Shown: one piece after another, positions 3,272 through 19,938 of the stretch | Position numbering within the stretch: position 1 is the first letter of the stretch | Layout of the letters: each line of letters begins with the position of its first letter | Assembly (NCBI RefSeq): GCF_018224925.1 | Contig: NZ_JAGTUF010000003.1 | Span: 1 to 64,000 of the forward strand | From: Magnetospirillum sulfuroxidans | GTDB lineage: Bacteria > Pseudomonadota > Alphaproteobacteria > Rhodospirillales > Magnetospirillaceae | Length of the DNA: 64,000 bases | Direction: 5' to 3' | Position numbers and translations under genes: made by a program | The notes under the pieces: model-generated | Told to the model about the DNA's origin: nothing | The model's database searches: none | Seen by the model: the letters and a program-made list of their open reading frames with translations, nothing else

Positions 3272-5440
3272 ATGCTGGTTGGTGAAGGCAATAACCCAAG
3301 GCAGGCTGTGGTGGAAAGAACGGGGCGGGTAGCGGCGGTGCTGTCGTTCGGACGGGGGCGTCCGCTCGGCTTGGCCGTGCTGACGATCTGTCTGGCGGCG
3401 CAAGTTCTGTCGGCATCACCGGTGGTCGCTGTCCGCAATGCCTTGTTCGATGGCTTGCAGGCGTTGTTTTTACCCAAGCATGGCAACTCGCGGGTCAGTG
3501 TTGTTGAAATAGACGAAAAGAGCTTGGAATCCTTGGGCCAATGGCCTTGGCCGCGATCCTTGACCGCACGGTTGGTCGCGGCGGTGCAGCAGGCCAAACC
3601 CGTGGGAATCGGCTTGGCGATGGTCATGCCGGAGCCAGATCGGTCGTCTCCCGACGTTTTGGCCCTCTCAAGCGACTTTCCGCCGGAAGTCCGATTGCAA
3701 TTATCGCTCTTGCCCGGTCACGACCGGCTGTTGGCCCAGGCGATCGCCGCCGGCCCGGCGCCGGTGACCTTGGGGGTTGCCGGCCTGGTGGGTGGCCTGT
3801 CGATGCAGGAAAACGGCCCCTTGCCCCCGGTACTGCTGCGCGGCGACGGCGACAGCGCCAGCGCTGCCATTCATTACGACGACACCTTGCGCAGTCGGCC
3901 GGAGCTAGAGCGGGCCGCCGCTGGTCTGGGACTGATCTCGGTCGAGCGGGATGCCGATGGCGTGGTCCGCCGTCTGCCCTTGCTGGCATGGGCCAATGGT
4001 CACCCTTTCCCGGCGCTGGCGGTGGAGATGCTGCGCTTGGCTGTCAATGCCCCGGCGCTTGAGGCCAATGTCGGATCGGCGGGAGGGATCGACGGCATTG
4101 TCATCGGTGGTCGCCGGCCGCCGGTCTTGGCTGACGGCACGTCTTGGCTGCACTTCGATCCTTATCGTTCCCGCTCTTCGATGTCGGCGGTGGACGTTCT
4201 GGACGGCAAGGTTAATCCTTCGTTGTTGCATGACCATCTGGTGTTGATCGGGGTCACCGGCCTGGGTTTGGTCAACGAGGCGGTGGTCGCCGTTGGCGAC
4301 TCGGTTCCGGCCGTGCATGTCCATGCTCAATTGCTGCAATCCTTGTTGGACGACACCTTGCTGTCTCGCCCGTCCTGGATGGTGATGGTGGAAGCCGCTG
4401 TCTTGCTGGTCTTGGGACTGGGGATCATCGTCTTGTCGCCGCGTGTTTCGGGCCGTGGCTTTTGGGTGTTGGGCGGTTTGTGGCTGCTGCCGCTGCCTTA
4501 TGCGGCAATCTTGTTCCAGCGTTATGGGGTTTTGTTCGACGGTGCCGTGCCACTGATCGGCGCCGGCTTGGTTTTCATGGCCATGATCGTGGTGATGTCG
4601 GCCGAAGACCGGCGTCAACGCCATATCTTGCACCAGTCGCTCGAAGAGCACCGCTTGCGTATGGCCCATTTGGGCGGTGAACTGGCGTCGGAACGCCGGG
4701 CCGCCGAGGATCGTTTGCAGTTCATCGACATGATCAGCCATGAATATCGCACACCGCTTGCCGTCTTGCGCACCGGTCTCGACGTGCTGGAACTGCGTCT
4801 TCAGGAAACGCCGCAAACCAAGGCGTTGTCGCGGATGCGCCGCGCGGTCATCCGGCTTAGCGAGATCGTCGATGTCGGTTTGGCCCGTGCTCGGCTCGAC
4901 GCCACGCAAATTCCAGTCGAGCGCAAGGAAATCGACCTGGGCCAATGTTTGGACGAGGCGGTTGTTTCGGTGCGTGCCGCCCATGTCGGGCGTTCGGTGG
5001 TGGTCGATGGCCCCAAACCGGCGCCGATGGTTCTGGCCGATCCGCCCATGCTGAAGACGGCATTGCTGAACCTGATCGACAACGCCTTGAAATATTCCGA
5101 CCACGATGTCTTCGTCAGCATTCGCTTGGCCGAAGGCGAGGAACCGCCGACTACCTGCCGCTTGGTTGTCGCCGATGAAGGCATCGGCATGAGCGCGACC
5201 GAAATGACCAAGGTCTTCGATAAATTCTATCGGACGCCGACGGCCTTGACCAAACCGGGGACTGGCATGGGGCTGGGGATCACCCGTCGGATCATCGAAT
5301 TGCATGACGGCTCCATCGATTTGCGCAGCCGTCCGGGCGAAGGGACGACGGTTACAGTCACCTTGCCGCTCGGTCTTTCGCGCCAAGATTGTTCGCATGA
5401 ATTGACCAAAGGGAATGGGCAGGGGCATATAGTTGCATAA
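3272..5440 (+). CDS. CHASE2-domain sensor histidine kinase
   Basis: 722 residues. A transmembrane helix near 32-50 leads into a periplasmic CHASE2 domain (about 60-350). Three further helices (about 367-450) and a short coiled linker precede the kinase core: H-box ISHEYRTPL with phospho-accepting His490, N-box LLNLIDNALKYS, G1 VADEGIGMS, F-box KFYRT and G2 GTGMGLGI. All catalytic motifs are intact. The start is uncertain because no strong ribosome site precedes ATG 3272; GTG 3311 is an alternative. The response regulator follows 94 bases later and is the obvious partner. CHASE2 ligands are unknown in general. Confidence 0.9.
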   Translation: MLVGEGNNPRQAVVERTGRVAAVLSFGRGRPLGLAVLTICLAAQVLSASPVVAVRNALFDGLQALFLPKHGNSRVSVVEIDEKSLESLGQWPWPRSLTARLVAAVQQAKPVGIGLAMVMPEPDRSSPDVLALSSDFPPEVRLQLSLLPGHDRLLAQAIAAGPAPVTLGVAGLVGGLSMQENGPLPPVLLRGDGDSASAAIHYDDTLRSRPELERAAAGLGLISVERDADGVVRRLPLLAWANGHPFPALAVEMLRLAVNAPALEANVGSAGGIDGIVIGGRRPPVLADGTSWLHFDPYRSRSSMSAVDVLDGKVNPSLLHDHLVLIGVTGLGLVNEAVVAVGDSVPAVHVHAQLLQSLLDDTLLSRPSWMVMVEAAVLLVLGLGIIVLSPRVSGRGFWVLGGLWLLPLPYAAILFQRYGVLFDGAVPLIGAGLVFMAMIVVMSAEDRRQRHILHQSLEEHRLRMAHLGGELASERRAAEDRLQFIDMISHEYRTPLAVLRTGLDVLELRLQETPQTKALSRMRRAVIRLSEIVDVGLARARLDATQIPVERKEIDLGQCLDEAVVSVRAAHVGRSVVVDGPKPAPMVLADPPMLKTALLNLIDNALKYSDHDVFVSIRLAEGEEPPTTCRLVVADEGIGMSATEMTKVFDKFYRTPTALTKPGTGMGLGITRRIIELHDGSIDLRSRPGEGTTVTVTLPLGLSRQDCSHELTKGNGQGHIVA

Positions 5441-5534
5441 GGGACGGGAGCTAACCTAACCACCGTGGAGACTGGCGGGGGGTGTCGGCTGTCGGGATGG
5501 CGTGGGGGCCATAGTGGAATTCTCGGGGAATTCG

Positions 5535-6257
5535 ATGACACGGATTATTATTGCCGAAGACGAGGTCGATCTACTCGAACTCTTGCAGGAATGTCTGAAT
5601 TTATTGGGGTTCGAGACTGTCGGTGTCGGATCGGCGTTGGCCTTGTTCCGTGAACTGGCGACATCATCCTTCGATGTCGCCATCATCGACGTCGGATTGC
5701 CCGATCAAAGCGGCTATGACATCGTCGAGGTCCTGAGCAAACGCCCCGACATGGGGGTGATCATGCTGACCGCTCGGGGAGGGACCGAAGACCGCATCCG
5801 CGGTTTCGCCAGCGGCGCCGATCTTTACTTCGTCAAGCCGGTGGATTGTCGGGAATTGGGGGCGGCGATCCACAGCTTGGTGCGCCGTTTGGACGGCAAC
5901 GAGCCCACGGCGGAAGCTGCGCCACCACCACCGGCCAAGGTTGCTCCCGCCGCCTGGACCTTTGATCGGACTCGCTGGATCTTGCGGACTCACGATGCGA
6001 TCGACATCGATTTGACCTCGGCCGAAGTCATGTTGTTGGAAAAGCTATTGCGCCAGCCGGGAGAAACCGCCAGCCGGCAAGAATTGTTGCGGGCTCTCGG
6101 CTACGAGGAGGATGAAGCCGGAAACCGCAATCTGGAAGCCATCGTCCGACGCTTGCGCCGTAAGGTCGAAACCGTGTCGGGCGGCAAGGCGCCGATCCAG
6201 ACCGTGCATAGCCGCGGTTATCTGTTCTCGGCCGCGATCTCGGTGATCTCGGTCTGA
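5535..6257 (+). CDS. OmpR-family response regulator
   Basis: 240 residues from ATG 5535, chosen over the in-frame start at 5502 because GGGGA lies just upstream and the receiver domain begins at once (MTRIIIAEDE). The receiver has the acidic pair at the N-terminus, phospho-acceptor Asp52 (VAIIDVGLPD), the Thr of MLTARG and the Lys of FVKPVD. An Ala/Pro linker (about 128-142) joins a winged-helix DNA-binding domain with the typical RRLRRKVE recognition helix and the HSRGYLF wing. It is the probable target of the CHASE2 kinase. It is the last gene before the terminator and AT-rich region preceding the giant surface-protein gene, so it is a candidate regulator of that locus. Confidence 0.9.
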   Translation: MTRIIIAEDEVDLLELLQECLNLLGFETVGVGSALALFRELATSSFDVAIIDVGLPDQSGYDIVEVLSKRPDMGVIMLTARGGTEDRIRGFASGADLYFVKPVDCRELGAAIHSLVRRLDGNEPTAEAAPPPPAKVAPAAWTFDRTRWILRTHDAIDIDLTSAEVMLLEKLLRQPGETASRQELLRALGYEEDEAGNRNLEAIVRRLRRKVETVSGGKAPIQTVHSRGYLFSAAISVISV

Positions 6258-6673: not shown

Positions 6674-9600
6674 ATGAAACTGTTCCTCGAGCCGCGCTGT
6701 CTCTTCGACGCTTCCGTCGCCGCGACCGCAGATCATGCTACCGACACCGCATCGATTCATGGCGCCAGTACGGCCGCCGATAGCGATTCCTCGGGCCATG
6801 ATGCTTCCACCGAACCGGCGGCCCCGGCGGCCGTGGCCGATGCCTCGGCGGGAGCCGCCGCCACCGATGTTCATGAAATCTTGTTCGTCGATACCCGGGT
6901 GTCGGGGTGGGAACAATTGGTGGCCGGCGCCCGCGCCGATGTGCAAGTGGTGGTGCTGGACCTGCATCGCGACGCCATCACCCAAATCTCCGAAGCGCTG
7001 GCCGACCGTCAGGGAATCGAAACCATCCACATCCTGTCCCATGGTGTCGCCGGCGAGATCGATGCCGGTAGTGGCGTCATCACCTCGGCGACCTTGGCCG
7101 CCAATGCCAATGAGGTTGCCGCCTGGGCCGATCACCTCGCCGCTGGCGCCGACATTCTGATCTGGGGCTGCGATGTTGGCGCCGGCGAGGCCGGTCAAGC
7201 CCTGCTGGCCGATCTGCACAACCTGACCGGCGCCGACGTCGCCGCATCCACCGACGCCACCGGGGCTGCGGCCCAAGGCGGCGACTGGGTGCTGGAAAAC
7301 CATACCGGCAGCATCGAGAGCACGCAGCCCATCGCCTCCGCCGTCACCGACAGCTACGATCATCTGCTGGCGGCGCCGTCGGTGACCGACAGCTATACCG
7401 CCAATCAGGTGCGCGAGGTGACCGAGGACGGCACCTTCACCATGGGGCAATTGTCGGTGTCCGGCGACGGTGAGATCACCGTGGTGCTGACCGTGAAAGA
7501 AAACGGCTTGGCCCCGGTCGCCGGCACTTTCTCGCTGGCCGGCACCACCGGCCTGACCTTCACCAATGGCGATGGTGTCAACGACGCCACCATGACCTTC
7601 AAGGGGTCGGCCAGCGACATCAACGCCGCCTTGGCCGGGCTGAGCTACAAGCCGACGGCCAATTACAACGGCAACGCCGTGTTCGACCTGTCGCTGACCA
7701 ACGCCGATGGCAGCGCCAGCAAGGCTGTCACCGTGCAGGTGGTCCAGGTCAACGATGCCCCGGTGCTGACGCCGCCGGCTTCGCTTGCCGACGCCAACGT
7801 GGCGACGGTCAACGAAGACGGCACGATTACCCTGACGCCGGCCAATTTCGGCATCGACGCCAGCAATCTCAAGGCCTTCGATCCCGACCTTGACGCCACC
7901 TTGTCCACCGTCAAGGCCCAGACCACCGACCAATTGACCTTCGAGGTCACCGCCATTCCCGCCGATGGCCGGCTGATGAAGGACGGGGCGCCGCTGTTGG
8001 AAGGCTCGTTGTTCACCTTGAAGGATCTGATCGACGGCAAGATCACCTACAAGCATCTCGGCGGTGAAGCCAACGACGTGTTGGCCGCCGGCAGCCAAAG
8101 CGACAGCTTCAACGTCACCATCCGTGACGGCGCCTCGGGCGTCGATACCGGCACCATCCTGATCAAGATCAATCCGGTCAACGATGTGCCCACCGTCAGC
8201 GCCAGCGCCACGGTTACCGCCTATGAGGGCCGCAATGCCGTGCCGATCACGGTCAGCGTCACCGATCCCGACCAAACCAGCACCACCTGGAAGGTCGCCT
8301 TCGGCGCCCTTGATCTGCAAGGCTGTACCTTGTACCTGGAAAACGGTTCCGATGGTCACTACACCGCGGGTGTCGATACCCTGATCGACGCCAGCACCAT
8401 GTTCAGCGGCACCTTGGCCCAATTGAACGCCAAGTTGCGCCTGGATGTCAGCGGTGCCGAACCCAGTGCGCCGGTGACCTTCACCATCACCGTCACCGAT
8501 GACGATGGCGGCACCATCAATGCCAATGTCACCGCTGGCGACGGCGCATCGTCGGCGGCGACCACCATCACCATCAATCTGGTGGAAAACAACGATCATC
8601 CGGTGTTGACCAATACCGGGGCGGATAGCGCCAACCCGATCTATGCCGGTGACGACAACACCAGCATCACCGTGACCACGGCGATGTTGGGTATCGTCGA
8701 TATCGACAGCCCATCGACGACGCAGGCCTTCACCCTGACCTCGGGGATCGTGCGCGACAGCGGCAACGGCACCGCCTATCTGCTGCTCAACGGCCAAGCG
8801 CTTTCCAGTGGCGGCTCTTTCAGCTACCAGGACATTATCGATGGCCATGTCCAAATCATTCTAACGGGTGGCAGCAGCATCAATGACTTCCACTTCGACT
8901 TTAAAGTTCGAGATGGGGAAATCACCGCTTTTTCCACCGTCCGTCAGGTCGAGGATCCCATTGACGGCGGCACCCGCAATGCCGCCGACACCGCCTATCT
9001 GAGCCACACCTTCTATTTCCGCTTCGACACCCCGGCGGGCACTGGCGGCAGCTATACCCCGGACCCGGCCAACCAGGCCCCGGTGATCGATCAGATCATC
9101 GGTATCCGCGCTTCCGACCTGAGCGAAGGTGGTTCGGTGGTCCTGAAGGGTGACGGCAGCGGCCCCGGCATCGTCATCACCGACATCGACAACACCGACG
9201 GCGAAATCACCATCCGCCTGGAAAGCCTGCCCAGCGGCGCCACCATCTTGCTGAACGGCGTGGCGGTTCCGCTTTACGGCAGCTTCACCTATGCCGATCT
9301 CAAGGCGGGCAACGTGACCTATCGCCACGATGGTGGTGAATCTTTCCTGTCCAGCAATCTGGGCTTCACCTTCTCGGTGTCGGATGGCTCGGCCTTGCCG
9401 GTGACTCCGTCGGTCAATTCCCAGGCCTATGACGCCAACGACTTCGATCCGATGCACAATTTCTCGGTCGAGGCCACCCCGGTGAACGACACGCCGACGG
9501 TTTCCGTCGATATCACCGCCGTGGTCAAGGAAGGCGGCTCGGTCACCTTCAACACCAGCGGCCAGACCGCCATCAGCCTGTCCGACGTCGATGGCAGCGG

Positions 9601-12600
9601 CGATGCCGCGCCGGCCAGCCTGGATAATTTCAGCAGCAACGCCGGAATTGACGATCTTTACGTCACCGTTGGCGCCCTGCCGGCCCATGGCAAGCTGGTC
9701 TATAACGGAACCGACATCACCGCCGGCAACATGGCGACGATGAAAATCCTGAAGACGGATATCGCTGCCGGCAAGCTGGTCTATCAGCACGATGGCAGCG
9801 AAACCACCTCGGACAGCTTCCAGATCACCGTCAACGACCAGCAAAGCCAGGGCAATTCGGCCGGCGACACGGTTATCGTCAATATCCAGGTGGCACCGGT
9901 CAACGACACCCCGATCATCGATCCCAGCACACCGACTGCCCCGACCGATGCCGGCACCATCAACACCGGCCTGCGCGTGGTCGAAGGCGGAGCCGGCGTG
10001 ATCGGCGGCTCTTCGGCCAGTTATGGCGGCATTTCCTTCAGCACCAGCACCGATGGCAGCGGCCGGGCGCAATTGATCTCGACCGACCCCGACAATTCCA
10101 CCACCCAGATTCAGTACCGCATCACCGACAATGTCGATTACGGCAAGCTGATGTTGAACGGTCAGGTTCTGGGGGTGGGCAGCACCTTTAGCCAAGACGA
10201 CTTGGATAATGGCCGGGTCACCTATGTGCATGTCACCGGCAATGGCGCGGGTGAGGGACAGGTGACCGATTCGTTTTCGTTCGAGGTCGGTGACGCCGGT
10301 CCCGGCACCTATCCGACCGGCACCTTCGACATCGAGGTGTGGACCCAGACCAACGACACGCCCACGGTCACCGCCAGCACCACCACCGTCAACATCGACG
10401 ACACCGCCGCCGCCAGCAATCCGATCACCGGCGTGTCCATCGCCGATGCCGATTTCGCCGATGGTTCCGGCTCGGTCACGGTGACCGTGCGCTTGACCGA
10501 CAGCAGCGGCACGCCGCTGACCTTGGGCGATTATGCCGGCTACACCATCACCAGCGGCGCCAGCGGTTCGGGCGTGACCATCGTCAGCGACGGTGACCAA
10601 AAGGCGCTGGTCATCACCGGCAACGTTACTCAGGTCAATACCTACCTGGCTGGACTGCAACTGGGCTCGACCACCGATCCCAACACCACGCTGAAGCTGG
10701 AAGTGATCGCCGACGACCGCGTCTATAGCGGTGCGATTCCGCAATCGGACGCCAATGGCGGCGACACCAACCAAAACCAGACCGAAGGCGGCAACCCGGT
10801 CGCCATCGGCACCACGACCTTCGATCCCTACAGCACCTTGGTGTCGGCTTTCGGCGGCTATAACGTGGTGTCGAAGACGGTGACGCTGCGGATTTCCATC
10901 GTCGACCAGCCGGCCACCGTCACCGTGCCCGGGGCACAGACGGCGAACGAGGATGTCGGTACCGTCATCACCGGGATTTCGGTCAGCGACCCGGAAGCCA
11001 CCGGCTTCGGCCTCAACACCACGGTGACCCTGAGCGTCGGTTCGGGCAAGATCAACGTCGGCACGCAAACCGGCGTCACCGTCAGCAATAACGGCACCGG
11101 CACGGTGACCCTGACCGGCACGACGGCCAATATCAACACCTTGTTGGCCGCCGGCGTCACCTATGCCTCGGCCGCCGACAGCCATGTGGACACCAACGGC
11201 GCCGCCGCCGGCGACGTCACCTTGACGGTCAAGGTCCAGGAAGGGGCGGCGGCGATCGGCAACGAAGCCGGCGGCAGCCCCGGCGACGACGCCATCACCC
11301 AGACCATCGCCATCTCCATCGACCCGGTCAACGACGCCCCGGTGGTCAACCAAAGCGGCGCGGCCATCGCCGTCGGTGACCCCAACACGGCGGTCGATAT
11401 CGGCGGTTTCACCGTCACCGACAAGGATATTTCCGGCGATGCCGGCAATCTGAATACCGCCGAGGGCGAACAGGATTTCGTCCAGGTCACCGTGCGTCTG
11501 CTCGACCAGACCGGCAATCCGTTGGCCGCCGGCAGCTATGCCGGGGTGGTCCTGACGGTCACCTCGACCGGGGGCTTGGTCACCGACACCACCTTGGACG
11601 GGACCGACGCCGCCTTGCAAATTCGCGGCACCCTAAGCGAGGTCAACGCCGCCTTGGCCGGACTGAAGCTGACCTTGGGCGCCACCTTGGGCAACACCGA
11701 TCAGCCCTATCGGGTTCAGGTCGTGGTCGATGACCGCATCCGCAACGCCGATGGCAGCCTGAACGCCAGCGCCGCCGACGCCAATGGCGGCGAATTGAAC
11801 AATTCCAACGGCGCCACCAGCGCCCAGGCGGTGCCGACCACCGGCTTCGACGTCTACGCCGACACCGTCCCCTCGGTCTACAATCTGGGCAGTGCCACCC
11901 GCATCATCTATCCGTCCTCGGGCAACGAAGTGCCGAGCCTGAGCAAGCCGACCGGGGCGTCGGCGACGGAAGATACCCGCAGCTATATCGGCGGCGACAT
12001 CGTCGTCAGCGATACGGAATCCAACAATTTCAATCTGCCGGTACAGTTGACCTTGTCCACCGGCGGCAACGGTATCTTGAGCGTCGGCGGCAGCGGCACG
12101 CTGGCCGACGGCGCCACCATCGCCGGAACCAACGTCAAGGTGGTCAGCGGCGACGAAAGCGGCACCTTGGTGCTGCAAGGTAAGGCATCCGACATCCAAG
12201 CGCTGCTGAACGATGCCACCAAGGGGCTGTTCTATACCTCGGCCGCCAACAGCAACAACGACCTGAACGGGGCCGCCGCCGGCGACGTGACGGTAAGCCT
12301 GAGCCTGAACGAATATCAATCGGCCACCGATTTCGGCAAGGTGGCGCAAGTCGTCACCGCCAGCTTCGGTGTCACCGTCGCGCCCGTGAACGACACCCCT
12401 GGCCTGACCGGCACCTCGCTGGATCCGCAAGCCGCGATCAAGGCCAGCGGCGGCGGCACCGTGTCGGTGGCCCTGGTCAGCGGAGCAGGGGCCACGGATG
12501 TCGATTTCGGCGACACCGGCATCTCCACCTTCGGCGGCGGCACCCTGACCATCAGCTTCACCGATGGGTATCGGGCCGGCGACCGTTTAAGCTTGTCCGG

Positions 12601-14032
12601 CACCCCGTCCGGCGTGGCCTCAACCAGCGGCGGCAGCGGCAATGCACTGGTCATCACCTTGACCGCCGGGGCGACCGCCGCCGACGTCAAGGCCATCGTC
12701 GAAGCCTTGCGCTATCAGTCGGTGGACGCCGATCCCACCTTCGGCAACGTCGATCCCGACCGCCATTTCAGTATCGTCTTGAACGACGGCAACAACGATA
12801 ACGGCGTATCCAATGCCGGTGGTCCGGCGGCGCTCAATTCCACCGCCCTGACCGGGATCATCACCTTCGGCTATACCAATCCGACCGCCCACGACAACAC
12901 CGCCACGGTAACCCGCTCATCGGCTGAAACCGATACCGGCAATCTGGTCACCGACAACGACGGCAGCGGCGTCGATAACGACCCCGAGGCCGATCCGCTC
13001 AAGGTCAGCCTGGTCGGTGGTGTGAACGTTCCGGCGGTGGGGAGTGTCGATGTCGTCGGCACTTACGGTACCCTGACGGTGGCCGCCGATGGCAGCTACA
13101 CCTATCGGCTGGACCCGAGCAACGCCACGGTCATCGCCCTGGGCGAGGGGGCGACACTGACGGAAACCTTCGGCTACACCATCACCGATACCCAGCGCAC
13201 CGCCAGCGCCAATCTGGTGATCAGCGTCAAGGCCCCGATTACCCCGGTCAACGAGCCGTCGGTGGTGGTGACACCGCCGCCGGTGGAGCCGTCAGCGCCG
13301 ACCGTGCCGGTGACACCGCCAGCACCGACACCTTCGACCGTGGTCCTGTACACACCGCCGCCACCGGTCATCACCCCGACCGAAACCGCCATCCCGGGTT
13401 CCGAGATCCGCGACTTCAGTTCGCGTCCGATGGAATACGCCCATGCCTGGGGCGGCGAGCGGCCCAGCGATGTCGATCTGATGCTGGTGGGATCGGTGGG
13501 CAACCGCTTCATCATCCCCAATCAGACCAGCAACATCGAAGTGCCGCCCAACGTCTTTCGGCACACCAATCCGAACGAGCCGCTGGCCTTCGAAGCGCGC
13601 CGGCCCGACGGCAGCCCGTTGCCGAAATGGTTGATCTTCGATGCCCGCAACCTGACCTTCAAGGGCACGCCGCCGGATACCGCCAAGGGGGCGGTGGACA
13701 TCGTCATCGTCGCCAAGGACACCAACGGCAACAAGGCCGAGGCGCAGTTCCGCATCCTGGTCGGACAAAATGTCGGCGAGGATATGCCGGTGCAAGACGG
13801 CACCCGGCCGCCGGCCGCCGAAGCGCCGAGCTTGCCGCCCAATCAGGTCGAGGCACCACCGGTCGATGGTGTCCCGGTTCGCCAGGGCCTGCTTGACGAC
13901 GGTTCCGGCTGGACCGCGTCGCTGGCCTCGGGCCGCAGCGCATTCTCGACGCAACTGCGCGAGGCCGGGTCTTTGGGGGCCTTGGCCCAAGCGCGGGCGC
14001 TGCTTGACGCCATCAACCAACCGCACGCCTGA
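6674..14032 (+). CDS. Giant LEPR/DUF4347 cadherin-repeat surface protein
   Basis: 2452 residues from ATG 6674 with a strong AGGGGG site. The N-terminus MKLFLEPRCLFDAS carries the LEPR-x-L-FD motif seen in very large bacterial surface proteins and has no Sec signal. DUF4347 follows (about 66-232: EILFVDTRV, HILSHG, DILIWGCDV). Most of the protein is tandem Ig/cadherin-like repeats of about 100-250 residues, marked by seven VND(A/T/V)P-type linkers (the fifth reads TQTNDTP). Near 2070-2190 there is a VCBS-like repeat, then a Pro-rich stretch, a dystroglycan-type Ig domain (LPKWLIFDARNLTFKGTPP) and a C-terminal tail. No RTX nonapeptides are visible. It is inferred to be an exported adhesin or cell-surface filament, exported by the four genes downstream. 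Confidence 0.88.
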   Translation: MKLFLEPRCLFDASVAATADHATDTASIHGASTAADSDSSGHDASTEPAAPAAVADASAGAAATDVHEILFVDTRVSGWEQLVAGARADVQVVVLDLHRDAITQISEALADRQGIETIHILSHGVAGEIDAGSGVITSATLAANANEVAAWADHLAAGADILIWGCDVGAGEAGQALLADLHNLTGADVAASTDATGAAAQGGDWVLENHTGSIESTQPIASAVTDSYDHLLAAPSVTDSYTANQVREVTEDGTFTMGQLSVSGDGEITVVLTVKENGLAPVAGTFSLAGTTGLTFTNGDGVNDATMTFKGSASDINAALAGLSYKPTANYNGNAVFDLSLTNADGSASKAVTVQVVQVNDAPVLTPPASLADANVATVNEDGTITLTPANFGIDASNLKAFDPDLDATLSTVKAQTTDQLTFEVTAIPADGRLMKDGAPLLEGSLFTLKDLIDGKITYKHLGGEANDVLAAGSQSDSFNVTIRDGASGVDTGTILIKINPVNDVPTVSASATVTAYEGRNAVPITVSVTDPDQTSTTWKVAFGALDLQGCTLYLENGSDGHYTAGVDTLIDASTMFSGTLAQLNAKLRLDVSGAEPSAPVTFTITVTDDDGGTINANVTAGDGASSAATTITINLVENNDHPVLTNTGADSANPIYAGDDNTSITVTTAMLGIVDIDSPSTTQAFTLTSGIVRDSGNGTAYLLLNGQALSSGGSFSYQDIIDGHVQIILTGGSSINDFHFDFKVRDGEITAFSTVRQVEDPIDGGTRNAADTAYLSHTFYFRFDTPAGTGGSYTPDPANQAPVIDQIIGIRASDLSEGGSVVLKGDGSGPGIVITDIDNTDGEITIRLESLPSGATILLNGVAVPLYGSFTYADLKAGNVTYRHDGGESFLSSNLGFTFSVSDGSALPVTPSVNSQAYDANDFDPMHNFSVEATPVNDTPTVSVDITAVVKEGGSVTFNTSGQTAISLSDVDGSGDAAPASLDNFSSNAGIDDLYVTVGALPAHGKLVYNGTDITAGNMATMKILKTDIAAGKLVYQHDGSETTSDSFQITVNDQQSQGNSAGDTVIVNIQVAPVNDTPIIDPSTPTAPTDAGTINTGLRVVEGGAGVIGGSSASYGGISFSTSTDGSGRAQLISTDPDNSTTQIQYRITDNVDYGKLMLNGQVLGVGSTFSQDDLDNGRVTYVHVTGNGAGEGQVTDSFSFEVGDAGPGTYPTGTFDIEVWTQTNDTPTVTASTTTVNIDDTAAASNPITGVSIADADFADGSGSVTVTVRLTDSSGTPLTLGDYAGYTITSGASGSGVTIVSDGDQKALVITGNVTQVNTYLAGLQLGSTTDPNTTLKLEVIADDRVYSGAIPQSDANGGDTNQNQTEGGNPVAIGTTTFDPYSTLVSAFGGYNVVSKTVTLRISIVDQPATVTVPGAQTANEDVGTVITGISVSDPEATGFGLNTTVTLSVGSGKINVGTQTGVTVSNNGTGTVTLTGTTANINTLLAAGVTYASAADSHVDTNGAAAGDVTLTVKVQEGAAAIGNEAGGSPGDDAITQTIAISIDPVNDAPVVNQSGAAIAVGDPNTAVDIGGFTVTDKDISGDAGNLNTAEGEQDFVQVTVRLLDQTGNPLAAGSYAGVVLTVTSTGGLVTDTTLDGTDAALQIRGTLSEVNAALAGLKLTLGATLGNTDQPYRVQVVVDDRIRNADGSLNASAADANGGELNNSNGATSAQAVPTTGFDVYADTVPSVYNLGSATRIIYPSSGNEVPSLSKPTGASATEDTRSYIGGDIVVSDTESNNFNLPVQLTLSTGGNGILSVGGSGTLADGATIAGTNVKVVSGDESGTLVLQGKASDIQALLNDATKGLFYTSAANSNNDLNGAAAGDVTVSLSLNEYQSATDFGKVAQVVTASFGVTVAPVNDTPGLTGTSLDPQAAIKASGGGTVSVALVSGAGATDVDFGDTGISTFGGGTLTISFTDGYRAGDRLSLSGTPSGVASTSGGSGNALVITLTAGATAADVKAIVEALRYQSVDADPTFGNVDPDRHFSIVLNDGNNDNGVSNAGGPAALNSTALTGIITFGYTNPTAHDNTATVTRSSAETDTGNLVTDNDGSGVDNDPEADPLKVSLVGGVNVPAVGSVDVVGTYGTLTVAADGSYTYRLDPSNATVIALGEGATLTETFGYTITDTQRTASANLVISVKAPITPVNEPSVVVTPPPVEPSAPTVPVTPPAPTPSTVVLYTPPPPVITPTETAIPGSEIRDFSSRPMEYAHAWGGERPSDVDLMLVGSVGNRFIIPNQTSNIEVPPNVFRHTNPNEPLAFEARRPDGSPLPKWLIFDARNLTFKGTPPDTAKGAVDIVIVAKDTNGNKAEAQFRILVGQNVGEDMPVQDGTRPPAAEAPSLPPNQVEAPPVDGVPVRQGLLDDGSGWTASLASGRSAFSTQLREAGSLGALAQARALLDAINQPHA

Positions 14033-14036
14033 CGTC

Positions 14037-14072
14037 AATAACAAAAGAAACCGGAATAACAAAAGAAACCGG
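14037..14072. repeat. 18-bp tandem direct repeat, two copies
   Basis: AATAACAAAAGAAACCGG occurs twice in exact tandem directly after the giant gene's stop and before the ribosome site of the TolC-type gene. It may set intercistronic mRNA stability or simply be replication slippage. Confidence 0.7.
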
Positions 14073-14106
14073 CTTTGGGCCGAGAGTTCATTGGGGGACT
14101 GAAAAA

Positions 14107-15660
14107 GTGAAACGCATTATCGCCATCCTGCTTGCCACCACCGCGTTGACGGCCTGCTCGCTCAAGCCCGAGCCGATCACTCCGGCCCAGCATTTCCAAC
14201 GGGCCAAGGATGATTACCAGGAGCTCTACGCCAATTACCTGCCGGTGACCAAGGCGTTGACCTTGGAAGAGGCGGTGGCACGCGCCCTCAAGTACAATTA
14301 CGACAACCAGTTGGCACGGGTGGAAACCAGCTTGCAGGAACGCCAGCTCGATTTGGCGTTGTCGCAGATGCTGCCGCGTCTGGCCGCCGATGCCGGCTAT
14401 AACTGGCGCAGCAACAACGGTTCGTCGCAAAGCATCTCGGAACTGACCCGGCAGCAATCGCTGGATTATTCCTATTCGCAGGAACGCCAGCACACCACCG
14501 CCGATCTGCAATTCTCGTGGAGCATGCTGGATCTCGGCGTCAGCTATTTCCAGGCCCGCCAGCAAGGCTACCGTGCCCTGGTCGCCGTCGAGCGCCGCCG
14601 TAAGGTCATCAACACCTTGGTCAAGGAAACCCGCGGCGCCTATTGGAAAGCGGTGTCGGCGCAACGCCTGCTGCCCAAGCTGGAACCCATTCTGGCGACG
14701 GCGGAAAAGGCTTTGAACGCGTCGCGCAAGGTCCAGGAAGACGCGCTGCAACCGCCGTTGCAGGCGCTGGAATACCAGCAAAGCATGTTGCAGGTGATCA
14801 GCCAGTTGAAGCGCATCCGCACCGATCTGATGAGCGCCAAGGCCCAATTGGCGGCGCTGATCAACGTGCCGCCGACAGATCCCTTGCCGTTGGCCGCCCT
14901 GGACGGTGACGCCAAGGCGCCGAGCCCGGTGGAAGTGGCGATCGCCAAGCTCGAGGAAATCGGCCTGGCCATGCGGCCCGAACTGCGCGAGGAAGCCTAT
15001 CAGGAACAGATCGATCGTCAGGCCGTCTACAAGGAAATCGTCAAGATGATGCCGGGCGTGACCTTGATGGCCAGCCTGAACCAGGATTCCAACAAGTACC
15101 TGTATCGCGACACCTGGGCCGAAGCCGGGGTGCGGGTATCTTATAATCTGGTCAACCTGATCCAGGGGCCGCAGGCCATCGACGCTGCCGAAGCCGCCGT
15201 CGCCGTCGCCAAGACCCGGCGTCTGGCGGTCAGCGTCGCCGTGCTGACCCAGGTCAATCTGGCCTATCAGCAATATCTGCGCTCGATCGAGACCTTGGAG
15301 ACCGCCATCGACGTCAACACGGTCCAGCGTCAGATCACCAAGACCGTCGATAACGCCAATGTCGCTTCGGCCCAATCGGACATGGAACGCATCCGGCGCT
15401 TCCTGTCGGCCACCGCCGCCGAACTGGAACGCGACCGGGCGCTGTCCGACGTTCACCAATCCCTGGGCAATCTGTACGCCGCCGTCGGCATCGATCTGGT
15501 ACCGCCGACCGTGGACACCAACGATTTCGGCCAATTGGTCGGCCAAGTCGGCGACGCCATCCACGATTGGGAAGCCGGCCGCATGCCGCTGCCCGATTTC
15601 TCCACCGAAGCGCCGCCGGCTGACGCTGTCGGCAGCGAGACCGGGCGGCCGGTTTCGTGA
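14107..15660 (+). CDS. TolC-family outer-membrane efflux lipoprotein
   Basis: 517 residues from GTG 14107 (TGGGGGACTG upstream). A lipoprotein signal ends in the lipobox LTAC (Cys17). The rest shows the outer-membrane efflux protein pattern: long heptad-like helices with the internal duplication of this family (about 60-270 and 300-470), for example LTLEEAVARALKYNYDNQLA. It should trimerise into an outer-membrane channel with a periplasmic alpha-barrel. It is the second gene of the locus, 74 bases after the giant protein, and the next gene overlaps its stop (TGATG). The natural reading is the exit duct for the giant protein. TolC-family proteins also serve drug efflux, so the substrate is inferred. 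Confidence 0.88.
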   Translation: MKRIIAILLATTALTACSLKPEPITPAQHFQRAKDDYQELYANYLPVTKALTLEEAVARALKYNYDNQLARVETSLQERQLDLALSQMLPRLAADAGYNWRSNNGSSQSISELTRQQSLDYSYSQERQHTTADLQFSWSMLDLGVSYFQARQQGYRALVAVERRRKVINTLVKETRGAYWKAVSAQRLLPKLEPILATAEKALNASRKVQEDALQPPLQALEYQQSMLQVISQLKRIRTDLMSAKAQLAALINVPPTDPLPLAALDGDAKAPSPVEVAIAKLEEIGLAMRPELREEAYQEQIDRQAVYKEIVKMMPGVTLMASLNQDSNKYLYRDTWAEAGVRVSYNLVNLIQGPQAIDAAEAAVAVAKTRRLAVSVAVLTQVNLAYQQYLRSIETLETAIDVNTVQRQITKTVDNANVASAQSDMERIRRFLSATAAELERDRALSDVHQSLGNLYAAVGIDLVPPTVDTNDFGQLVGQVGDAIHDWEAGRMPLPDFSTEAPPADAVGSETGRPVS

Positions 15661-16481
15661 TGGGCCGGGGCCGGCTCTTTCCTTTGTTTGTCCTGGCCGG
15701 CTTGGTGCCGGCCGGCGCCCTGGCCGCCGATCCTCCTCTCCGGTCGGCCGGGGCGCCACAACAAACGTCGGGTACACGGGATTTCGTCAGGGAAATGGAC
15801 CTGCCGACACCAACGGCGGAACGCGATATCCGCGTCCAGATCACCGCCACCACCATCGCCATCATCGGCGCCGGCATGGCCGGGCGGTTGTCGAGTTTTC
15901 CGTTGAAGGACGGCGACCGTTTCAAGGACGGCCAGTTATTGGCCCGCTTTGATTGCGCGGTTCAAGACGGCGCCTTGGCCCGGGCGCGGGCTGGCTATGA
16001 AAAACGGCGCAAGATCTACGAAATTCAGCAAAAACAGCGCCAATTGGGCAGCAACAGCGCCTTGGATTTCGAGATCGCTTCGGCCGAACTGCACGAAGCC
16101 GGCGCCGATGTCGCCGCCGCCCAGGCGGTCAGCAGTCGCTGTTCGATTTCCGCCCCTTTCGCCGGCCGCGTCGCCGCGGTGATGGCGCGCGACTATCAAT
16201 ATGTGGGCGAGGGAGCGCCGTTGCTGGAAATCCTGAGCGACCGCGATCTTGAAGTGGAAATGATGGTGCCGTCGCGTTGGCTCGGCTGGCTCAAGGTCGG
16301 CGCCCGTTTCGACGTCGCCGTCGATGAAACCAAACAGACCTATGCCGCCACCTTGATCCGGGTGTCGGGCAAGGTCGATGCCGTCAGCCAGTCGATCAAG
16401 GTCTATGGCCGCATTCCGTCCGGGGCCGACACCTTGCTGCCGGGCATGAGCGGCCGGGCCCAATTCCATCCGCCGTCATGA
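15660..16481 (+). CDS. Periplasmic adaptor protein (HlyD/RND membrane-fusion type), exported
   Basis: 273 residues from ATG 15660 (GTG 15657 adds one residue). An N-terminal signal sequence (LFVLAGLVPAGALAA) means it is periplasmic and not membrane anchored. It has the adaptor layout: a lipoyl half-motif with KDGDRFKDGQLLARFDC, a short helical hairpin (about 95-150), the second half-motif SISAPFAGRV, and a beta-barrel (EVEMMVPSRWL) ending in LLPGMSGRA. Its start overlaps the TolC-type stop and its own stop overlaps the next gene (ATGA). The short hairpin resembles RND-type adaptors rather than the long HlyD hairpin. It probably bridges the outer-membrane channel to inner-membrane components. 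Confidence 0.82.
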   Translation: MGRGRLFPLFVLAGLVPAGALAADPPLRSAGAPQQTSGTRDFVREMDLPTPTAERDIRVQITATTIAIIGAGMAGRLSSFPLKDGDRFKDGQLLARFDCAVQDGALARARAGYEKRRKIYEIQQKQRQLGSNSALDFEIASAELHEAGADVAAAQAVSSRCSISAPFAGRVAAVMARDYQYVGEGAPLLEILSDRDLEVEMMVPSRWLGWLKVGARFDVAVDETKQTYAATLIRVSGKVDAVSQSIKVYGRIPSGADTLLPGMSGRAQFHPPS

Positions 16482-17824
16482 GTGCCGGGCATAACCTGCA
16501 ATTACTGCGGCTTTCCGCCCTGTTGCAGTTGGAACAGCGGGCCAGGCGCTGTTCGGCCGCCGAGCTGGGCTTCTTGATGGTCAACGACACCGCCGGGGTG
16601 GTGCCGTGCCAGCAAGCGGCGCTGTGGCGGCGCAGCGGGCCGGGGGCGGGGGACGTTGCCGCTTTGTCCGGGGCTTGCGCTCCCGATCCGGCCTCGCCTT
16701 ATGTCGGTTGGCTGCGCCAAGTCCTGGCGATTTTCGATCAAGACGAGGTTGCCGGTCCGCGCGTGGTGCTGTCCTCGCATTTGCCGGCGGCGCTGGCCAC
16801 CGATTGGGTCGAATGGTTGCCAAGTCACGCGCTGTGGTGCCCGTTGGATGCCGGGCAAGGTCAACGGTTGGGGGGATTGCTGTTGGCGCGGTCGGCGCCG
16901 TGGCATGACGGCGACACCCATATGATGGCCGCCTTGGCCGGCGCCTATGCGCAAGCGTGGCTGCTGGCCAGCCAGCGGCCGGTCGGCCTGCCGTGGGTGA
17001 CCAAATTACGCCATCGCCGCCGCGCCGTGGTCGCGGTCGTTGCCGTACTGGCGGTGCTGGCCTTGTTGCCGATCCGCCAATCGGTCCTGGCTCCGGCCGA
17101 GGTGGTGCCGATCACGCCGATGCAGATCCGGGCGCCGTTCGACGGCGTGGTCGATACCATCGCCGTCGCTCCCAATGCCGAGGTGACGGCAGGGCAGGTG
17201 CTGGTGTCGCTGGACACCACCCAATTGCGGACCCGGCATCGGGTGGCGACCAAATCGCGTGAGATCGCCGAGGCCGAATACAGCCAGACGGCGCAGATGG
17301 CCCTGTCCGATCCATCGGTGAAGGGACGTTTGGCGCTGTTGCAAAGCAAGATCGAGCAGCAGGCGGCGGAAGTCGGCTTCGTCGAGGAACAATTGCGCCG
17401 GGCCGAGATGAGCGCGCCGGCCGCCGGCATCGCCGTTTTCGACGACGCCAACGATTGGGTCGGCCGACCGGTGGCAGTGGGCGAGCGCATCATGATCGTC
17501 GCCGATCCCACTCAGGTGGAATTGGAAATCCAGGTTCCGGTCGCCGATGTCACCACCTTCGACACCGGGGCCGAAACCGTGTTTTTCCCCAATGTCGCCC
17601 CCGACCATCCGGTTGACGCCAGCGTGGTGTTTGCCAGCCATGCCAGCCAACCCGCCGCCGATGGCGTCTTGGCCCATCGCTTCCGCGCCGCCTTCGCTGG
17701 CACTGGCCCCGATTTACGCCTGGGGTTGAAAGGCACGGCCAAGATTTATGGCGAGCGGCGGCCGCTGTTGATGTGGCTGTTGCGGCGGCCGTTGGCGATG
17801 GTGCGGCAATGGCTGATGCTCTGA
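16478..17824 (+). CDS. GAF-like domain fused to a membrane-anchored HlyD-type adaptor
   Basis: 448 residues. Residues 1-168 have the hydrophobic pattern of a GAF domain (LGFLMVNDTAG, QAALWRR, RLGGLLLARSAPW) and should lie in the cytoplasm. A basic stretch and one helix (about 183-199) cross the membrane. Residues 205-448 are a periplasmic adaptor: first lipoyl half with APFDGVVDTIAVAPNAEVTA, a helical hairpin (about 255-300), second half MSAPAAGIAVF, and a beta-barrel. GAF domains bind small ligands or mediate contacts, so the fusion could gate export from the cytoplasm. It overlaps both neighbours. It is not a usual RND or ABC partner. Confidence 0.75.
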   Translation: MSAGHNLQLLRLSALLQLEQRARRCSAAELGFLMVNDTAGVVPCQQAALWRRSGPGAGDVAALSGACAPDPASPYVGWLRQVLAIFDQDEVAGPRVVLSSHLPAALATDWVEWLPSHALWCPLDAGQGQRLGGLLLARSAPWHDGDTHMMAALAGAYAQAWLLASQRPVGLPWVTKLRHRRRAVVAVVAVLAVLALLPIRQSVLAPAEVVPITPMQIRAPFDGVVDTIAVAPNAEVTAGQVLVSLDTTQLRTRHRVATKSREIAEAEYSQTAQMALSDPSVKGRLALLQSKIEQQAAEVGFVEEQLRRAEMSAPAAGIAVFDDANDWVGRPVAVGERIMIVADPTQVELEIQVPVADVTTFDTGAETVFFPNVAPDHPVDASVVFASHASQPAADGVLAHRFRAAFAGTGPDLRLGLKGTAKIYGERRPLLMWLLRRPLAMVRQWLML

Positions 17825-19938
17825 GTCTGCCCCGTCTGCCGCGTCTGCCGCGCCTGCGCGAGGATCTGAAGTTGCTGCCCGGACCTTCGACCCCGGACGG
17901 CGCCCCGACCTGGACCTTGCACGATCCCGCCGCCCATCGCTTCTTTCGCATCGGCTGGAGCGAGTTCGAGATCCTGGCCCGGTGGGAACTGGGCAATCCA
18001 CAGACCATCGCCCGGTCGATATCGGGGCAGACCACCTTGAAAATTTCCCCGGCCGAGGTGATGGAGGTGGGAAGCTTTTGCGAAAATGCCGGCCTGATCC
18101 AGGCCGAGGGCGACCACGGCGCTCGGCGCTTGAGCGCTGGCCTGGAAGCGAAAAAGATGTCGGCGGCCAAATGGCTGCTGAAGAATTATCTGTTCTTGCG
18201 TCTGCGCCTGCTTGATCCCGACCGTCTGCTCGCTTCCTTGCTGCCGTGGGTCGGCTGGGCCTTTCATCGGCGCTTTCCGCCGGTTCTGGCCCTGGCCGCG
18301 GCCTTTGGTCTGTATCTGGTCGGCCGCCAATGGGAACATTTCACCCATACCTTGTCGTGGGCCTTTACCCCGGCGGGGGCGGCGGCGACCGCGCTGGCCC
18401 TGTCGCTCAGCAAGATGGCGCATGAGATGGGGCACGGGCTGGCCGCCAAACGCTTCGGCTGTCGGGTGCCGGCCATGGGGGTGGCCTTGCTGGTGATGTG
18501 GCCGGTGTTGTGGACCGACGTCACCGATGCGTGGCGACTGACCGACCGTCGCCAACGATTGATCATCGACGCCGCCGGCATGGCCGCCGAAGTGATGGTC
18601 GCCGTGCTGGCGTCGCTGTTGTGGGCGGTTCTGCCCGATGGCCCGGTGCGCTCGGCGGTGTTCTTGCTGGCCGGCTCGACTTGGGTGCTGACCTTGGCCG
18701 TCAACCTTAACCCGTTGATGCGCTTCGACGGCTATTTCCTGCTGTCCGATTTGCTCGACGAACCCAATCTGCAAGACCGCTCCTTCGCCTTGGGCCGCTG
18801 GTGGCTGCGTGAAAGATTGTTCGGTTTCGGCGACAGGCCGCCGGAAGTGCTGGCCTCGGCCCGGCGAAGCTTGTTGGTCGGCTATGCCCTGGCCATCTGG
18901 GTTTACCGCTTCTTCCTGTTCCTGGGCATCGCCTTGCTGGTTTACCACTTCGCCTTCAAGCTGCTGGGGTTGTTCCTGATGATGGTTGAAATCGGCTGGT
19001 TCATCTTGCGCCCCATCGCGGCGGAAATGCGGGTTTGGCAAAAACGCCGGGCCGATCTGCGCTGGAACCGCAATCTCGGGCTGAGCCTGGCGATGCTGGT
19101 CCTGGCGGTTCTGGCCGTCGCCGTCCCGTGGAGCGGTTCGGTCTCGGCGCCGGCCTTGTTGCGGCCCGAACGGCAAAGCGTGCTGTACACGGCCCAACCC
19201 GGCCAAGTGATCGAAGCAGCCCGCGCGGGACGGCCGGTGGTGGCGGGCGAGACCCTGTTCGCCTTGAAAGCCCCCGAATTGGAATTCCGCCGTCGCAATG
19301 CCGAGATCGAGATCGAAGGCTTGCGCACTCGGTTGGCCGGGATTTCCTTTGATACCGATTCGGCCGAATCGGTGCAGGTCACCTGGGAAGAACTGGGCAA
19401 GGCGGTGGCCGAACTGCGCGACGTCGTCGCCGCCATGGATAGCTTGGTCACCCGCGCGCCCTTCGCCGGCGTGGTGGTCGACATTCCGCCCATTCTGCGC
19501 TCGGGCCTGTGGATGGGAAAACACGACCCCCTGGGCATCTTGATCGATCCGGCGACGCAAATGGTCGAAGCCTATGTGGCCGAATCCGACCTGGACCGCC
19601 TTGGCCTCGAAAATCCGGCCCGTTTCTATGCCGAAAACGGCGAGGTCACCATCGATTTGCGGGTACGTTCCATCGATCGTTTGTCCACCCGTGAACTCGG
19701 CGTCGCCGAACTGGCCTCGAAGAACGGCGGCGCCATCGCCGTGCGCGAAGACCCCAATAACCGCCGGCTGATCCCGGAAACTTCGCTTTACCGGGTGCTG
19801 CTGGCCCCCGACGCCGACAATCCGCCGCCGGCGCTCATCCGTCGCGGCACCGTGGTGTTGGACGCCAAGGCGGAAAGCCCGGTGCTGCGCCTGTGGCGCC
19901 ACGCCGTCGCCGTACTGATCCGCGAAAGCAATCTGTAG
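17809..19938 (+). CDS. M50 (site-2-type) metalloprotease fused to an adaptor domain, with PqqD-like N-terminus
   Basis: 709 residues from ATG 17809, which overlaps the preceding stop by 16 bases; an in-frame ATG at 17773 would add 12 residues. Residues 30-110 resemble a PqqD-type winged-helix peptide-binding fold (DPAAHRFFRIG). A polytopic M50 domain follows, with the zinc motif HEMGH (His205, Glu206, His209) and the third ligand in NPLMRFDGY (Asp307). After more helices a periplasmic adaptor part begins near residue 445: a lipoyl half with ARAGRPVVAGETLFALKAPE, a hairpin, then TRAPFAGVVVDIPP and a beta-barrel. The motifs look catalytic. It occupies the inner-membrane position held by an ABC transporter in type I secretion. 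Confidence 0.82.
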   Translation: MADALSLPRLPRLPRLREDLKLLPGPSTPDGAPTWTLHDPAAHRFFRIGWSEFEILARWELGNPQTIARSISGQTTLKISPAEVMEVGSFCENAGLIQAEGDHGARRLSAGLEAKKMSAAKWLLKNYLFLRLRLLDPDRLLASLLPWVGWAFHRRFPPVLALAAAFGLYLVGRQWEHFTHTLSWAFTPAGAAATALALSLSKMAHEMGHGLAAKRFGCRVPAMGVALLVMWPVLWTDVTDAWRLTDRRQRLIIDAAGMAAEVMVAVLASLLWAVLPDGPVRSAVFLLAGSTWVLTLAVNLNPLMRFDGYFLLSDLLDEPNLQDRSFALGRWWLRERLFGFGDRPPEVLASARRSLLVGYALAIWVYRFFLFLGIALLVYHFAFKLLGLFLMMVEIGWFILRPIAAEMRVWQKRRADLRWNRNLGLSLAMLVLAVLAVAVPWSGSVSAPALLRPERQSVLYTAQPGQVIEAARAGRPVVAGETLFALKAPELEFRRRNAEIEIEGLRTRLAGISFDTDSAESVQVTWEELGKAVAELRDVVAAMDSLVTRAPFAGVVVDIPPILRSGLWMGKHDPLGILIDPATQMVEAYVAESDLDRLGLENPARFYAENGEVTIDLRVRSIDRLSTRELGVAELASKNGGAIAVREDPNNRRLIPETSLYRVLLAPDADNPPPALIRRGTVVLDAKAESPVLRLWRHAVAVLIRESNL

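Follow-up and report, generated by a model that had tools for sequence, protein, structure and literature searches.

A conserved gene module pairing an RRE-like M50 protease-adaptor with giant LEPR proteins in Magnetospirillum sulfuroxidans and other bacteria, and its proposed role in their export

Introduction

Type I secretion and tripartite efflux systems, such as HlyBD-TolC and MacAB-TolC, are built on a TolC-type channel and HlyD- or MacA-like adaptors, and the substrates of type I secretion can be giant. Passages of PMC8277102 name ATP-binding cassette (ABC), resistance-nodulation-division (RND) and major facilitator superfamily (MFS) transporters as the energised parts of tripartite pumps. 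Here we describe a gene module in a 64,000-nucleotide stretch of Magnetospirillum sulfuroxidans DNA (contig NZ_JAGTUF010000003.1, positions 1 to 64,000; hereafter the window), which encodes a giant repeat protein, a TolC-type lipoprotein (outer-membrane factor, OMF), a free periplasmic adaptor, a GAF-transmembrane (TM)-adaptor and an M50 intramembrane protease fused to an adaptor (M50ad). The module shares the channel and adaptors with the systems above and differs from them by the absence of an ABC, RND or MFS transporter, by three adaptor-type proteins, by the inner-membrane M50 protease and by a putative N-terminal LEPR tag on the giant protein.

The protease has its closest counterparts in the biosynthesis of ribosomally synthesised and post-translationally modified peptides (RiPPs). 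As outlined in part of PMC10036551, the leader of daptides is removed by a RiPP recognition element (RRE) fused to an intramembrane site-2 protease, and an excerpt of PMC10885120 presents the M50 protease EpeP as thought to cleave and export its peptide. The daptide peptidases MpaP/DapP (NF041824) and the epipeptide proteins EpeP/LiaK resemble M50ad in that an RRE-like domain precedes an intramembrane M50 protease, and the daptide leader ELExMEAP may be compared with LEPRxMFDAA of the module, both being conserved N-terminal substrate motifs. Unlike these peptidases, which act on peptides, the module is associated with giant substrates, and its protease carries an adaptor domain and scores below the NF041824 cut-off.

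Some of the largest bacterial proteins are LEPR-XLL or DUF4347 giants, LEPR-XLL proteins reportedly being common in Planctomycetota. An excerpted source mentions a LEPR-XLL protein of ~8000 aa in Vibrio. The giant of the window belongs with these proteins, its LEPR motif lying below and its DUF4347 domain well above the respective curated cut-offs, and the present analysis ties them to the module. A further likeness, one of general layout, is to the LapA/LapG/LapD adhesins, in which a giant adhesin-like protein comes with processing and sensory parts; the set described here comprises OMF, free adaptor, GAF-adaptor and M50ad. Judged by title and start of abstract, no paper describing this gene set was found among the top-ranked literature matches, nor did an export route for LEPR-XLL or DUF4347 giants emerge from these matches.

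Results

Gene order and distribution

The window, which lies on contig C33 in a genome of 4.13 Mb, carries the five genes in one run on the plus strand, as the original prediction had placed them, with the following features:

6674..14032, plus strand: giant putative cargo protein, 2452 aa, cadherin/Big repeats, without a membrane segment by hydropathy
6686..6715, plus strand: LEPR leader motif LEPRCLFDAS, proposed address tag (giant aa 5-14; family comparison)
6878..7369, plus strand: DUF4347 domain, caspase/CHAT-like fold (giant aa 69-232, E 1e-53)
13931..13957, plus strand: C-terminal motif GRSAFSTQL (giant aa 2420-2428)
14107..15660, plus strand: TolC-type OMF, lipoprotein (OEP E 1.3e-23)
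15657..16481, plus strand: free periplasmic adaptor, RND_mfp/HlyD (RND_mfp E 5.6e-29)
16478..17824, plus strand: GAF-TM-adaptor (GAF-like at about aa 6-160, one TM helix at aa 183-201, HlyD-type adaptor)
17809..19938, plus strand: M50ad, RRE-like domain, M50 intramembrane protease and adaptor (reading frame open from 17773)
17857..18093, plus strand: predicted PqqD/RRE-like domain of M50ad (about aa 17-95, counted from ATG 17809)
18421..18435, plus strand: HExxH zinc site of M50ad, HEMGH (H205, E206, H209)
18703..18732, plus strand: second M50 motif of M50ad, NLNPLMRFDG region (N299 to G308)
19126..19878, plus strand: MacA-like adaptor domain of M50ad (aa 440-690)

Consecutive exporter genes overlap by 4 bases (OMF/adaptor), 4 bases (adaptor/GAF-adaptor) and 16 bases (GAF-adaptor/M50ad), in line with the predicted 4-16 bases; the last value presumes a start at ATG 17809, the longest open reading frame (ORF) of M50ad starting at 17773. 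No ABC gene was found among the ten ORFs neighbouring the module, which agrees with its predicted absence from the locus, and no RiPP modifying enzymes were found among the neighbouring ORFs scanned. A second full copy of the module lies on contig C44 of the same genome, with a 1978-aa DUF4347 giant, OMF, adaptor, GAF-adaptor and M50ad.

In 55 genomes of the host family, M50ad was found in 31 (including G033, in which the match is limited to the adaptor half), DUF4347 in 31, both in 30 and neither in 23 (Fisher p 3e-13), with up to eight M50ad matches per genome, fragments included. Gene order was examined in 41 fetched family modules, each count covering those with enough flank. The GAF-adaptor lies directly upstream of M50ad in 39/39, the free adaptor occupies its expected upstream place in 35/38 and the OMF in 23/34, and a LEPR ORF is present in 22/27; for 8 of the 11 modules lacking the OMF in its expected place it occurs elsewhere in the stretch, often with a giant between. 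A scan of one genome per species over 84,980 species returned at least 567 M50ad relatives, the best 80 of which are the named loci considered below. Among the matches listed, the closest named relatives are from Rhodospirillaceae UBA6219 (77% identity) and a Magnetospirillum metagenome-assembled genome (74%), and others are from Pseudomonas, Pectobacterium, Brenneria, Serratia, Azospirillum, Burkholderiaceae, methanotrophs, Magnetococcales and one Nitrospirales genome. All four exporter genes are present in 57 of the 80 named loci, and where the flank suffices the GAF-adaptor is directly upstream in 68/72 (not found in L111, L127, L135 and L145), the adaptor in 57/70 and the OMF in 51/65. The gene set is thus a real, conserved and widespread module: in the cross-genome check of the association that had been set in advance, co-occurrence is far beyond chance and gene order is kept.

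M50ad relatives also occur in 52 plasmid records (Escherichia 18, Citrobacter 8), where they are mostly annotated as HlyD-family adaptors. Two plasmids, one from E. coli and one from Kosakonia, keep the full order of giant, TolC, adaptor and two HlyD-annotated genes; close to the giant start the former has LESRQLFDGAA and the latter LEPRMLFDGAI. Among laboratory bacteria, Cupriavidus metallidurans CH34 has the module and a giant with both LEPR and DUF4347 on its megaplasmid. On the E. coli plasmid pKL53-L (L220, L221) the Ig-like giant gene preceding TolC is 13.4 kb long and has its LESRQLFDGAA near the start. Downstream of M50ad, the Kosakonia cowanii plasmid has three genes with a tail fiber protein annotation (L219:18092-20199). 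The M. gryphiswaldense plasmid pMSR-1 carries exporter genes beside an ELWxxDGT protein in a frame of 493 residues (L217:8466-16052). No LEPR start is present in this protein, whose C-terminal motif is retained, and it gives the impression of having lost its front part. This neighbour was considered as a small LEPR cargo and rejected, since it has no LEPR and looks 5'-truncated.

The module occurs in a second class, in which a ~620-aa GAF-adaptor is combined with a 720-aa M50ad, matched at 24-32% identity. Full-length profile comparison aligns the M50ad proteins of both classes (hhalign E 2e-89). Class II modules directly follow very long ORFs in most fetched stretches, and all four class II giants with a readable start carry a LEPR-type motif; that of G198 has 4161 aa, and the others have 9835, 8407 and 12894 aa with LEPRYLLSAD, LEERIFLSAD and LEDRIMLSAD, respectively. 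The LEPR-8K model (NF012209, cut-off 17 bits) scores 29.0 in L169, 34.0 in L181, 18.0 in L182 and 34.2 in G068.

The feature that marks the putative substrate

The association was further examined in 349 evenly drawn Pseudomonadota genomes, with at most three M50ad candidates scored per genome, giving M50ad in 75 genomes at E<=1e-100, 87 at E<=1e-30 and 99 at E<=0.001. A strict DNA pattern for the LEPR motif matched 46 of the 349 genomes, compared with one for the reversed control pattern, and 45 of these 46 have M50ad at E<=1e-100 (75/349 overall; p 3e-35). Similarly, LEPR-8K at E<=1e-3 matched 40 genomes, 39 of which have M50ad at E<=1e-30 (p 3.5e-26). By either test LEPR is present in 69 genomes, 67 of them with M50ad at E<=1e-30 (p 7e-51), and the remaining two are 57% and 86% complete; at the loose threshold of E<=0.05, LEPR-8K reached 82 genomes, 69 with M50ad. 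DUF4347 was found in 90 of the 349 genomes, 69 with M50ad (p 2e-46) and 21 without a strong match, six of which have a weaker one.

The module without DUF4347 was sought in 48 of the 80 named loci, representing 47 genomes. Eight genomes fall into this group, and in seven of them (Serratia, Pseudomonas chlororaphis, Corticibacter, three Brenneria and Insolitispirillum) the adjoining giant has a LEPR- or LESR-type start; in the eighth, P. morbosilactucae (L156), the giant start is not clearly readable. In Pectobacterium, the LEPR giant of the main module is devoid of DUF4347, and a DUF4347 giant stands beside a second, more divergent module. Because the giants of DUF4347-less modules still start with LEPR-type motifs, it is LEPR, not DUF4347, that tracks the machinery, and the short N-terminal LEPR motif is, from this comparison of sequences, the putative substrate mark. 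DUF4347 was rejected in this role, given the DUF4347-less modules that keep LEPR, the 21 of 90 genomes without strong M50ad and a type VI secretion system cargo protein which, in an excerpted source, carries DUF4347. The original prediction, a distinct pathway for giant proteins, was therefore right in direction and is partly supported: the association, the gene order and the lack of an ABC gene in the set stood, and DUF4347 as defining feature of the substrate did not.

In family giants a basic stretch comes first and is followed by (A)LEPRxMFDGAA. The giant of the C44 copy scores 16.4 and 18.4 bits with NF012209 and that of L159 17.2 bits. DUF4347 has a caspase/CHAT-like fold (clan CD cysteine peptidases). 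Of the 52 rows compared, 48 domain copies have a letter in each of the two columns and 43 of these show a His-Cys pair, so that most copies have the predicted catalytic pair and a putative peptidase activity; the copies in L044, L065, L091, L101 and L143 are without the His, two of them also without the Cys, and the domain is duplicated in some giants. At the other end, the C-terminal motif is present in 36 of 49 distinct complete giants, a count that left out ORFs cut by the locus edge, shorter than 800 aa or duplicated. Among the 13 misses, L041, L046 and L059 look frame-broken, L120 has an N run, and several others carry a similar, looser motif.

A gene of ~540-560 aa resembling TadE/G lies directly before the giant in L159 (8154-9770) and L180 (55-1683), the two loci tested (PF13400 E 2e-5). 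Look-alike ORFs precede the giant in L155, L158, L160, L161, L163, L164 and L168, in enterobacterial and Corticibacter modules.

The M50 protease-adaptor

Pfam detects Peptidase_M50 and HlyD_3 in the M50ad of the window. H205, E206 and H209 of the zinc site and N299, P302, R305, D307 and G308 of the second motif are invariant in 46 class I sequences, as are H215, E216, H219 and D317 in six class II sequences. The nearest named family is NF041824, the daptide leader peptidase (E 5e-50); its equivalog cut-off of 300 bits is reached neither by the window protein (170.7 bits) nor by three class II members (159.8-174.1 bits). Structural comparison gave MacA as the best match of the C-terminus, all structure matches being adaptors and biotinyl domains that speak for the adaptor part alone and not for the RRE-like and M50 parts. 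In sequence, M50ad thus looks like the fusion of an efflux adaptor to a leader peptidase of the RiPP type.

Ahead of the protease, M50ad begins with a predicted PqqD/RRE-like domain, the type of domain with which RiPP enzymes bind leaders. PF05402 matches three class II members (E 1.3e-4, 0.008 and 0.1) and L165 of class I (0.084), and hhalign of the N-terminus to PqqD gave probabilities of 89.7 for class I and 94.6 for class II, compared with <1 in 17 of 18 control windows and 16.4 in the other. The predicted order of secondary structure is strand-strand-strand-helix-helix-helix. This domain had been overlooked in the original prediction, and its presence suggests how the LEPR mark may be read.

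Channel, adaptors and neighbouring genes

The OMF has an N-terminal hydrophobic signal by hydropathy and a lipobox, LTAC, recognised by eye, and matches TIGR01844 (type_I_sec_TolC) at 55.6 bits, below the cut-off of 225. The free adaptor likewise begins with a hydrophobic signal by hydropathy. Pfam HlyD domains occur in three module proteins, TIGR01843 (type_I_hlyD) being matched only below cut-off. OMF and free adaptor form one fused ORF of 839-855 aa in two Azospirillum loci (L088:12189-14753 and L090:12255-14771), whose strand is not that of the other module genes; this fusion supports a joint complex of the two proteins.

The GAF-TM-adaptor has one TM helix by hydropathy and a HlyD-type adaptor, its N-terminus being unclassified by Pfam and NCBIfam. 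Pfam GAF made no call in the window protein and none in 11 class I members (E<=0.1), and the label derives from a profile alignment with class II members whose GAF domains are clear; this alignment spans 431 columns and takes in the GAF region (E 8e-35). Of the GAF-TM-adaptor fusion originally proposed, the TM helix and adaptor therefore hold and the GAF part is carried by this alignment.

Downstream of the module lies leuA, and two possible local regulators, both outside the conserved module, lie upstream:

3272..5440, plus strand: CHASE2 histidine kinase
5502..6257, plus strand: OmpR-type response regulator

Outside the window, the CHASE2 kinase was detected in just two loci, L036 and L037 (61-75% identity), with a weak match in L039, and was for this reason rejected as a part of the module; the pairing of kinase and response regulator is restricted in the same way.

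Discussion

We consider it probable that giant surface proteins carrying an N-terminal LEPR leader as their address are served by these genes as a dedicated export-and-processing module, for which we infer export, binding and cleavage. A fuller version, which we advance tentatively and rate somewhat short of probable, is a secretion system without an ABC transporter, in which the RRE-M50-adaptor protein would recognise and cut the RiPP-like LEPR leader of proteins as long as ~13,000 residues and pass the chain to the TolC-type channel. It would have two classes in Pseudomonadota, class I being represented also in a Nitrospirales genome, and would occur on plasmids, those of E. coli among them. 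Lacking a Sec-type signal, the giant would start in the cytosol. The RRE-like domain, which in M50ad is probably cytosolic, may bind the LEPR leader as RiPP RREs bind leaders, and the M50 site may cut in or just after it. The three adaptor domains would bridge to the TolC-type lipoprotein and form one path out, the GAF-like domain would gate the system, and the caspase-like DUF4347, which many cargoes have and others lack, may act outside to process the giant or set it free. The system might be powered by the proton motive force, by folding or pulling on the outside, or by an ABC exporter encoded elsewhere.

Several observations weigh against the export-and-processing proposal. The module is without an energised translocase, and a number of class I modules lack the OMF and free adaptor or have them in another place. 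Nothing was detected in class II stretches with the OMF model of class I, and the search for free adaptors gave only weak adaptor-like ORFs, in L170, L173 and L179. No LEPR match was obtained by the two stricter tests in 20 of the 87 M50ad genomes, the LEPR motif of the window itself is atypical (NF012209 10.4 bits, below the cut-off of 17), and the p values, which overstate independence because the genomes are related, serve as guides only. Pfam PqqD matches no class I M50ad in the 55 family genomes (E<=0.05) and was not found on the N-termini of the window M50ad and L098, a gap partly answered by the profile comparison to PqqD. The topology of M50ad is uncertain, with seven hydrophobic helices in the model and in hydropathy over 46 sequences versus six segments, partly others, in a single-sequence scan. 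Finally, ABC exporters matching TIGR03375 occur in 55/55 family genomes.

Since all 55 family genomes carry such exporters, an unlinked ABC partner for the module is possible, although positive support for one is absent. In its full form, this alternative is unlinked type I secretion, whereby a distant ABC exporter exports the giant through its C-terminal motif, the route is completed or tuned by the TolC-type protein and adaptors of the locus, and M50ad only trims the leader. Type I secretion signals are C-terminal, and the motif at the end of 36 of the 49 complete giants would suit such a route. However, ABC-like ORFs were found by a motif test in 0/40 family loci and, scattered, in 11 of the 80 named loci, and the ABC background is alike in family genomes with and without the module (by TIGR03375; HlyB and PrtD models were not searched), and we regard this alternative as unlikely. 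A dedicated LssB/LapB-type partner was rejected, because the TIGR03375 cut-off is exceeded in 2/55 family genomes, only one of which (G036) has the module. The Legionella Lit transporter was considered as the same system and rejected, as Lit is an ABC pump.

Retention and release in the manner of LapA/LapG/LapD would assign the same proteins a different order of events, with the giant leaving C-terminus first, its N-terminus held by the adaptors and channel, and cleavage by GAF-controlled M50 or by DUF4347 setting it free. It would accommodate the folded DUF4347 directly behind the leader, the conservation of both giant ends and the GAF-like domain on the TM-adaptor, and LapD reportedly controls periplasmic proteolysis from inside (PMC3032553). 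Nevertheless, the RRE-like domain is probably cytosolic (with the caveat of the six-segment scan), which suggests recognition before export, and several cargoes are without DUF4347, making this course of events distinctly unlikely in our view (families of the Lap type were not searched). A bystander role of the giant, with the module exporting either a short peptide cleaved off the giant N-terminus or an unrelated small molecule, is highly improbable, though no systematic search for short precursor ORFs was made: named M50ad relatives do act on RiPP peptides and small-molecule pump adaptors are the best matches of the module adaptors, but giants are tightly linked to the module in both classes, with up to 12,894 aa beside it.

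Returning to the dedicated export-and-processing module, its newness lies in the set as a system, each part being a known fold and the mechanism a proposal. One module for giants of this kind would be present in about one quarter of the sampled Pseudomonadota (87/349, M50ad at E<=1e-30). If the leader reading is true, RiPP-style leader recognition would sort giant proteins, with a protease where a pump is expected.

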